NCBI RefSeq assembly: GCF_025716945.1 | Contig: NZ_JAOVZT010000002.1 | Location: 364,419-428,418, forward strand | Reading direction: 5' to 3' | DNA length: 64,000 bases | DNA from: Geodermatophilus sp. YIM 151500 | GTDB taxonomy: Bacteria > Actinomycetota > Actinomycetes > Mycobacteriales > Geodermatophilaceae | In this document: positions 58,546 to 60,603 of the stretch, one piece after another | Position numbering within the stretch: position 1 is the stretch's first letter | How the letters are laid out: each line of letters begins with the position of its first letter | Made by a program: the position numbers and the translations under genes | Notes under the pieces: model-generated | Database searches by the model: none | Seen by the model: the letters and a program-made list of their open reading frames with translations, nothing else | What the model was told of the DNA's origin: nothing

Positions 58546-60603
58546 TCAGCGCGGTTCCAGCGAGCCCGCCCGCGGGACCTGGTCCGGCTCGGCGACCGTG
58601 ACGTCGTCGACGAAGCAGTAGCCCCACGTCTCGCCCGGCTCCCCCGAGGAGACCAGCGGGTGGTCCGCCTCGCCGGCGTGCGCCCGGGCGTGCCGGCGGG
58701 GGGAGGAGTCGCAGCAGCCGACGTGGCCGCACGTGAGGCAGATGCGCAGGTGCACCCAGTGGTCCCCGTCGCGCAGGCACTCCACGCAGCCCCACGCCCT
58801 GGGCAGCACCGGGCGCGAGAGCGGCCCGTGGTCGCAGCCGCTGCCGGCCGGCCACGGGTAGCGGACGACGGCGGTCGTGTCGACGACCGTCTCGTTCTCG
58901 CCCGGGGTCTTCTTGCGATGCCCGAGCCGGCCGAGCACCGACAGCACCAGCGCGTGGTCGGAGGCGCGGTCGCGGTCGACCACGGCGTCCGCGCCGGCCT
59001 CGGCCAGGACGGCGACGTCGGCGTCGCCCCGCGGGCGGACGACGATCGGCGCCCGCGTCAGCGCCCGGGCCACCGACACCACCCGCTCGGCCTGCTCGGG
59101 CTCGTCCTCGGCGACCACGACCAGGCGGGCGCGGGGCACGCCGGCCTCCTGCAGCACCCGGATCTTGGTCGGGTCACCACGCAGCACGGGATGCCCGGCG
59201 GCGGCCGCCTCCGCGCCGCCGTCGGGGTTGAGCGTGGTCATGACCAGCGGGATCCCGCGGGAGCGCAGCACGTCCGCCAGGTGCAGCGCCGTCGGACCCC
59301 AGCCAAGGAACGCGACGTGGTCGGACAGCGACTCGGGGCCGGGCGCGGAGCGGTCACGGGGCTCGCGGTCCGCGGGCATCGGCGTCACCGCACCCGCCCC
59401 CCGGTCGACGCGGGCGCCGAGCGCGGCCAGCCAGGGGGTGGCCACCATGAGCAGCACCGTCGTCGCCACGAAGGTCTGCGCGCCGTCGTCCCCCAGACCC
59501 AGCGGCGAGAGCCCGGCGGCCGTGCCGACGGTCAGCAGCACGAAGGAGAACTCGCCGACCTGGGCCAGCAGCAACCCGGACCCCAGGGCGGTGCCCCAGC
59601 GGATGCGCAGCGCCAGGACGGCGGCCGACGTGGTCAGCGTCTTGACGACGAGGACGCCGAGGGCGGCGCCGAGCACCAACACCCAGTTGTCCAGCACGAA
59701 GCCGACGTCGAGCAGCATGCCGACCGACACGAAGAACACCGCGCTGAAGACGATTTGCAGCGGCAGCACCTCGGCGAAGGCCTGCGAACTGGCCCGGCTC
59801 TCGCTGACCATCAGGCCGGCCAGGAAGGCGCCGAGCGAGACGCTCACCCCGGCCAGCGCGGTGAGGAAGGCGGTGCCGAAGCAGATCGCGACGACGGCCA
59901 GCAGGAACACCTCGGGCGAGCAGGTGCGGGCCACGACCTCCAGCACCGGCGGCAGCACGCGCCGGGCGACGACGAGGACGCCGGCGACGACCAGCACCGC
60001 GGTCCCGGCGGCCCGCAGCAGCGACGTCCCACCGCCCTCACCGTCGCCGCTGTCGCTGCCCAGCAGGGGCACGAGCAGCACCATGGCGACGACCGCGAGG
60101 TCCTGGGCGATGAGCAGGGAGAGGGCCAGCTGCCCGCGTCGTCCGGACTGCTCGTGCCGGTCGCCGAGCAGCTTCAGCACGATCGCGGTCGACGACAGCG
60201 CGAGCAGGAAGCCGGTGAACACCCCCTCCTGCCAGCTGCCGCCCAGGGCGAGGGTGATCCCGAGGCCGGCGGTCGTCGCGAGGCCGACCTGCACCGCGCC
60301 GCCGAGGGCGATCCAGGTCCACACCCGGGCCAGCCGCTCGAGGGAGAACTCGATGCCGATGGTGAACAGCAGCAGGATGACGCCGATGTCGGCCGCCGCC
60401 TGCACGATCTCGTCGTTCTGGACGACGCCGAGCTGGGCCGGGCCGATGAGCACCCCGGCGGCCAGGAAGCCGACGATCGGCACCACCCTGGCCCGCGCCA
60501 TGAGGTAGCCGATGACGGCGGCGGTGACCACCAGGCCGGCCGCCGGCCCGAGGTAGGCGGGTGGGCCCTCGGCCGCCGCGGCGACGACGGGCAGCGGTTC
60601 CAT
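58546..60603 (-). CDS. KefB-type cation:proton antiporter fused to UBP-type zinc finger
   Basis: A 685-residue fusion. Residues about 15-395 are a CPA2 monovalent cation:proton antiporter (12 helices; [40 protein letters not shown]). About 420-560 is a TrkA-N-like Rossmann domain ([21 protein letters not shown]). About 590-670 is a UBP-type zinc finger (GCDHG..., [56 protein letters not shown]). UBP fingers bind free ubiquitin C-termini in eukaryotes; here the ligand is unknown. ATG at 60603. It diverges from ligA and nearly abuts the MetE-like stop. Confidence 0.9.

Follow-up and report, generated by a model that had tools for sequence, protein, structure and literature searches.

A Kef-like cation:proton antiporter with a C-terminal UBP-type zinc finger in Geodermatophilus: a possible thiol module between redox signaling and ion antiport

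Introduction

Zinc fingers of the UBP type are known from eukaryotic proteins that read ubiquitin C-termini, and zf-UBP mini-proteins are also reported from bacteria and archaea in the available text of a 2008 survey (PMC2602986). A stretch of 64,000 nucleotides from Geodermatophilus sp. YIM 151500 (hereafter, the window) encodes a protein in which such a finger is joined to a cation:proton antiporter, and the question raised by this locus is what a UBP finger could be doing at the end of an ion transporter. The original prediction, made from the DNA letters, offered three roles for the finger, namely, binding of a protein with a C-terminal Gly-Gly, zinc sensing and redox gating of the antiporter, and left its tie to membrane ion flux unexplained. 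No fusion of an antiporter with a UBP finger was found in the literature by title and abstract, in a search covering mainly open-access papers. In this work, the protein was dissected by profile, structure and residue comparisons, and the genes fused to or surrounding related fingers were analyzed.

Results

Gene architecture and setting

Positions 58546 to 60603 of the window correspond to exactly one open reading frame, located on the minus strand (the strand had not been given previously), starting with the ATG at 60603 and encoding 685 amino acids. The predicted succession of an antiporter, a Rossmann-type domain and a UBP finger was confirmed by Pfam, with all three domains (Na_H_Exchanger, TrkA_N and zf-UBP) scoring above the Pfam cut-offs. 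From the N-terminus, the protein comprises a Na_H_Exchanger membrane domain of the CPA2, Kef-like type (residues 26–388; 59440..60528, minus strand; E 3e-52), a TrkA_N/RCK domain devoid of cysteine (residues 432–542; 58978..59310, minus strand; E 4e-14), a linker with a TVVDT-like stretch that was delimited by alignment (residues 548–587; 58843..58962, minus strand) and the UBP-type zinc finger, delimited by Pfam, alignment and a structural model (residues 588–676; 58576..58842, minus strand). The zf-UBP profile (PF02148) covers residues 606–674 with an E-value of 2e-11 and a score of 44.4 bits, the cut-off being 22.7. The motifs previously quoted for the finger, the paired histidines and WGYCFVDD, are all present in the translation of the frame; the finger starts at C590-x-H592 and is thus longer than initially seen. 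The fusion is not a chance event because 16 finger-bearing relatives align along the whole protein at 50–87% identity.

The neighbors of the gene are ordinary, a Meth_synt_2-domain gene (57517..58536, plus strand) on one side and a NAD-dependent DNA ligase gene (60561..62948, plus strand) on the other. No redox genes were found adjoining this copy, and the flavoprotein and cNMP-kinase genes that mark the ZF-UBP cyclic-nucleotide/redox module are absent next to it; elsewhere in the window, the sole relay-like match is a short flavin-type one at 20390–22888 (E 5e-7). Seven antiporter matches in the genome exceed the cut-off, and its two UBP fingers are the copy in the window and that of a 124-residue frame located on a different contig.

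A Kef-like antiporter with an altered RCK domain

By sequence, the closest solved structure for residues 27–539 is KefC (8bxg and 8by2; E 6e-48 for 8bxg), followed, for the membrane domain, by Na+/H+ antiporters such as 4bwz. Residues Q167-D168 (60100..60105, minus strand) align with the QD pair of KefC, which is present in all 21 aligned antiporters. The QD pair is a mark of K+/H+ exchange, and the protein, judging from its sequence, is probably a Kef-like CPA2 antiporter of the QD type that exchanges K+ and H+. It falls far below the NCBIfam cut-offs for KefC (239 against 752 bits) and KefB (192 against 804 bits).

The available text of a study on KefC (PMC11150392) describes an RCK domain that inhibits transport by contact and that holds AMP via R409, D429, H430, D449, D472 and R496, and glutathione via R409, Q412, R498 and R516. 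In the RCK domain encoded in the window, R409, Q412, D429 and H430 correspond to P437, L440, T457 and L458, and D449, D472, R496 and R498 are matched by D477, D500, R523 and R525. In this alignment, four of the eight compared AMP and glutathione contacts are lost (R516 was outside the comparison), and with four contacts changed and four kept, the domain lacks the full contact set of a glutathione-gated KefB or KefC. At the place of R409, 13 of the 17 finger-bearing proteins have proline, 3 alanine, 1 glutamine and none arginine; at that of D429, 16 have threonine and 1 methionine, and the place of R498 varies. The cysteines of the cytosolic part are confined almost entirely to the finger, which has eight of them in all 17 fused proteins, whereas the RCK domain plus linker has none in 15 and one in the other 2. 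A finger-less CPA2 type with an RCK-like tail from the same family (L080–L083) differs from the finger-bearing type at both places, with arginine at that of R409 and aspartate at that of D429.

Fold, zinc sites and conserved residues of the finger

Failure to adopt a UBP fold in a predicted structure had been named as grounds for refutation, and this check was run without refuting the assignment. An AlphaFold2 model of the finger alone, built from an alignment with 49 relatives, has a mean pLDDT of 88.7 (about 97 in the core), and its best PDB match among those listed by Foldseek and VIA-align is 2ida, the RPA1320 protein (Z 14.8, rmsd 2.0, 96 aligned residues), followed by HDAC6 entries, including 3gv4 with a ubiquitin peptide (Z 10.5, rmsd 2.9, 91 aligned residues), and then by USP16 and USP49. 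The same bacterial stand-alone finger, 2ida, is the closest solved structure by sequence for residues 588–676. A full-length model from 21 sequences, in which the pLDDT of the finger was under 50, was left out of the contact analysis.

Since an earlier set of fingers had been gathered with a pattern that demands seven Cys/His positions, residues were recounted in 159 bacterial fingers collected by profile only, nearly all of them from the phylum of the window (Actinomycetota). R620, C622, C625, C630, C631, H638, H642 and H648 are kept in 159 of 159, C606 in 157 and C609 in 158. At the level of sequence, all zinc-ligand positions are filled in the finger of the window, with an aspartate replacing the last cysteine of what we take to be the corresponding HDAC6 zinc site. 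The ligands were assigned to three candidate sites, C590/H592/C663/D666, C606/C609/C630/H638 and C622/C625/H642/H648, on the assumption that the zinc sites of HDAC6 are a valid analogy. In a set of 114 fingers collected with the pattern, which makes no demand on C590, H592, C663 and D666, all four residues are present in 65, none in 37 and a mixture in 12, so that they mostly go together, as expected of one zinc site. Seven of the eight cysteines of the finger are accounted for as predicted zinc ligands, and one of the paired cysteines, taken here as C631, would be left over once the three sites are filled. C631 (58711..58713, minus strand) is an extra cysteine at the place of G1154 of HDAC6, with D632 next to it at the place of R1155.

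The latter two HDAC6 residues bear on the Gly-Gly reading. According to the available text of an HDAC6 study (PMC10424181), ubiquitin-like substrates have their terminal glycine bonded by R1155 and Y1184, and binding is reduced in R1155A/Y1184A. In the alignment with eukaryotic fingers, the G1154-R1155 pair becomes Cys-Asp in the window; across the 159 bacterial fingers, the R1155 position holds aspartate in 153, glutamate in 4 and asparagine in 2, and its glycine neighbor is replaced by cysteine in every case. Because the place of R1155 is never occupied by arginine in these fingers, reading of a Gly-Gly C-terminus by the finger of the window is unlikely on sequence grounds, and this part of the original prediction is not supported. 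Gly-Gly or ubiquitin reading was accordingly dropped as the default interpretation, the pocket arginine being missing.

The finger might instead read some other C-terminus or an internal peptide and act as an adaptor through which the antiporter docks onto a partner protein, without thiol chemistry. The fold shared with peptide-bound HDAC6 (Z 10.5) fits such a role, as do the aromatic residue kept at the W660 place (tryptophan in 155 and phenylalanine in 4 of the 159 fingers), the availability of R620, which is invariant in the 159 and absent from the eukaryotic alignments examined, and the occurrence of the finger in fused or separate form, as for an adaptor. The exchange of the Gly-Arg of HDAC6 for Cys-Asp, with arginine in 0 of 159, argues against it, and we regard a peptide reader as possible but rather doubtful.

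Spread and origins of antiporter-finger pairs

UBP fingers are present in 97 of 112 genomes of the family of the window, Geodermatophilaceae, and in 95 of the 396 genomes of the phylum sample. With the whole protein as a query and the best 10 candidates per genome scored, antiporter-finger relatives were detected in 12 of 107 other genomes of the family, including one (G011) where the antiporter and finger halves lie in different frames; two further genomes of the family (G010 and G062) were found via long finger frames (L107 and L111). The search for other antiporter-UBP fusions that had been suggested for this locus was productive in the family, including named Geodermatophilus and Blastococcus, in other actinobacterial families (L094, L095 and L096) and on plasmids of two Deinococcus species, where the annotation is just “cation:proton antiporter”. 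The split-frame case is a Blastococcus strain (L064 5701–8033, L078 and L085) with the break near residue 545, which may be natural or due to a frameshift or sequencing error.

The partners to which the finger is fused comprise CPA2 with RCK, CPA2 without RCK, CPA1, a cNMP-HATPase_c kinase (L099) and LtrA (L124). The last of these, at 1627–3282 of its locus, is a membrane protein with a divergent UBP finger.

In the antiporter tree, a single clade (100/100) of 21 rows unites the CPA2-RCK-finger proteins, with 19 fused proteins and 2 rows from the split-frame strain; L110, a CPA2-finger protein without RCK, is outside this clade, and the CPA1-finger proteins belong to the opposite half. Because these three groups stand apart, uptake of the finger, fused or as a neighbor gene, occurred in no fewer than three antiporter lineages. 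The previously unexplained tie to membrane ion flux is thus accounted for in part, as a recurrent association in at least three antiporter lineages and in both fused and split forms. The finger-linked CPA1 antiporters fall in one clade (100/100) with 13 rows labeled as fused, among the fused rows L050 and L087 being one gene, and 17 labeled as near, where L021, L024 and L031 are probably fused, as short loci of genes with finger frames of 625–636 amino acids; the clade also takes in 2 of the 9 unlinked CPA1 rows included for comparison, and the near row L220 is outside. In the finger tree, 13 of the 14 CPA1-fused fingers cluster with 9 of the 19 solo fingers located near a CPA antiporter (92/85), and the other 10 solo fingers are outside this CPA1 finger clade. 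Four bacterial fingers (L057 1417–1683, L058, L157 and L211) form a deeply separate group (100/100), and no strong antiporter or flavoprotein match was seen in the loci examined for them.

Genes around bacterial UBP fingers

A random draw of 80 from the 126 finger places in the phylum sample yielded 55 with a full 12 kb of sequence. With cut-offs of E under 1e-50 for antiporters and under 1e-100 for TrxR-like flavoproteins, and with profiles derived from previously fetched loci, a part of which came from these very places, a strong antiporter match was found in 13 of the 55 regions (5 fused and 8 unfused) against 0.65 expected (from the 53 regions with counts), a strong TrxR-like match in 14, one or the other in 26 and neither in 29. 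The unfused antiporter neighbors are not independent because 7 of the 8 come from one family.

Of 128 finger places, 31 have a gene for a TrxR-like flavoprotein no more than 10 kb away, compared with at most 4.3 expected by chance in a crude estimate that assumes three copies in a 1.8-Mb genome for every place. With scoring limited to the top three candidates of each genome, a TrxR-like protein (E 1e-60) was present in 68 of 95 genomes with a finger and 28 of 301 without, and receiver-containing forms in 56 of 95 and 18 of 301, respectively. Neither these counts and Fisher tests nor the neighborhood counts above take kinship into account. In the partner flavoproteins, a receiver or cNMP domain is joined to a pyridine-nucleotide oxidoreductase. 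The CxxC motif is found in none of the 37 distinct TrxR-like flavoprotein genes beside UBP fingers that cover the respective region (including L127 3994–5664), and on this ground a literal disulfide reductase (thioredoxin reductase) was rejected as the partner activity; some of these CxxC-less proteins are named thioredoxin-disulfide reductase in sequence records.

The modules are encountered in several arrangements. On another contig of the genome of the window (L127), a solo finger clusters with receiver-flavoprotein and cNMP-kinase genes; in L096/L208, a CPA2-RCK-finger gene abuts opposite-strand genes for a receiver-flavoprotein and a cNMP-kinase, with which it is convergent; and on one plasmid each of Rhizobium and Agrobacterium, a FAD oxidoreductase gene comes after that of the finger. 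The Streptomyces plasmid NZ_CP104318.1 (L231 1–7988) has the finger gene within a heat-shock/redox gene run, which reads, in order, dnaK, grpE, a dnaJ-like gene, cbpM, clpB, trxA, the finger gene and a cNMP-flavoprotein gene.

Among 80 neighbor genes, selected from 180 in 20 hand-picked neighborhoods, there are 10 Pyr_redox_2, 9 Response_reg, 5 HATPase_c and 5 cNMP_binding matches. The 25 commonest of the 72 Pfam families in these 80 genes include no metal transport or regulator family, which counts against a sensor of zinc or another metal that gates the antiporter by metal load; such a sensor could draw on the three predicted zinc sites, of which C590/H592/C663/D666 is dispensable (all positions lost in 37 of 114 fingers), but we consider it highly improbable, and no genomic evidence for the zinc sensing originally proposed was seen. 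The finger might also be a structural appendage, a zinc-bound knob that stabilizes the dimer or the RCK domain and senses nothing. This is compatible with the assignment of most of its cysteines as zinc ligands and with its predicted ability to fold alone, but does not explain why fingers are fused to antiporters of different classes, to a histidine kinase and to LtrA, or why solo fingers lie beside redox flavoproteins, and appears unlikely.

Discussion

Redox gating is the best supported of the three roles originally proposed for the finger, given the redox neighbors of sister fingers and the cytosolic cysteines within the finger itself; against it, no redox gene adjoins the copy in the window, and 29 of the 55 sampled places have neither partner. 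The explanation put forward here is that of a Kef-like CPA2 antiporter with rebuilt cytosolic control, in which four of the eight compared RCK contacts are lost and a UBP finger is added C-terminally. The finger would be a zinc-held thiol module, made up of C631 beside D632 and the zinc thiolates, and a flavoprotein relay or cytosolic oxidants would read or alter this module and thereby switch the antiporter; stand-alone fingers would act in trans on a neighboring antiporter or flavoprotein. The antiporter would in this way be placed under a redox/cyclic-nucleotide relay instead of the glutathione sensing of Kef. Taken as a whole, this explanation has, in our judgment, an even chance of being correct. 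We infer that the switch is C631 or the zinc thiolates; against a thiol module, the conservation of the cysteines can be purely structural, with 7 of the 8 explained as zinc ligands. The shared finger, the shared neighbors and the existence of fused and split forms suggest that one regulatory module couples the redox/cyclic-nucleotide relay with ion antiport.

A broader version of this proposal, which we advance tentatively and consider on balance improbable, is that the UBP finger of bacteria constitutes a transferable subunit for thiol switching, with Cys-Asp in place of Gly-Arg, that would convey redox signals from CxxC-less, TrxR-like flavoproteins to Na+/K+ antiporters from three or more lineages, by fusion or in trans.

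The proposal provides a testable role for a widespread bacterial domain. Actinobacteria use mycothiol instead of glutathione, and the analysis suggests how mycothiol-using bacteria could control Kef-like antiporters. It also bears on the origin of the ubiquitin-reading finger: if the broader version is true, the UBP finger may have started as a redox control module for ion flux, before its use with ubiquitin in eukaryotes.

The protein can be compared with four known systems. With KefC and KefB of E. coli, it shares the membrane domain, the C-terminal TrkA_N/RCK domain and the QD pair, and differs from them in the extra finger and in the loss of the R409, Q412, D429 and H430 contacts. RPA1320 of Rhodopseudomonas palustris (PDB 2ida, a hypothetical protein according to its deposition) has the same finger, with 47–48% identity and a Z-score of 14.8, but, unlike the protein of the window, is a stand-alone chain of 102 residues with no transporter domain. 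The eukaryotic ZnF-UBP domains of HDAC6, USP5, USP16 and USP49 have the same fold and zinc-ligand spacing, whereas the finger of the window has Cys-Asp for the Gly-Arg of the Gly-Gly pocket, an LR insert and aspartate for the last zinc cysteine. Finally, Burroughs, Iyer and Aravind reportedly proposed in 2011 that bacterial ZF-UBP fingers belong to a cyclic-nucleotide-dependent redox signaling system, and the cNMP, receiver, TrxR-like and histidine-kinase genes around the fingers of that system were met again here; the present analysis extends this to the antiporters, with counts and trees, and contributes the replacement by Cys-Asp, the absent CxxC and the altered RCK domain.
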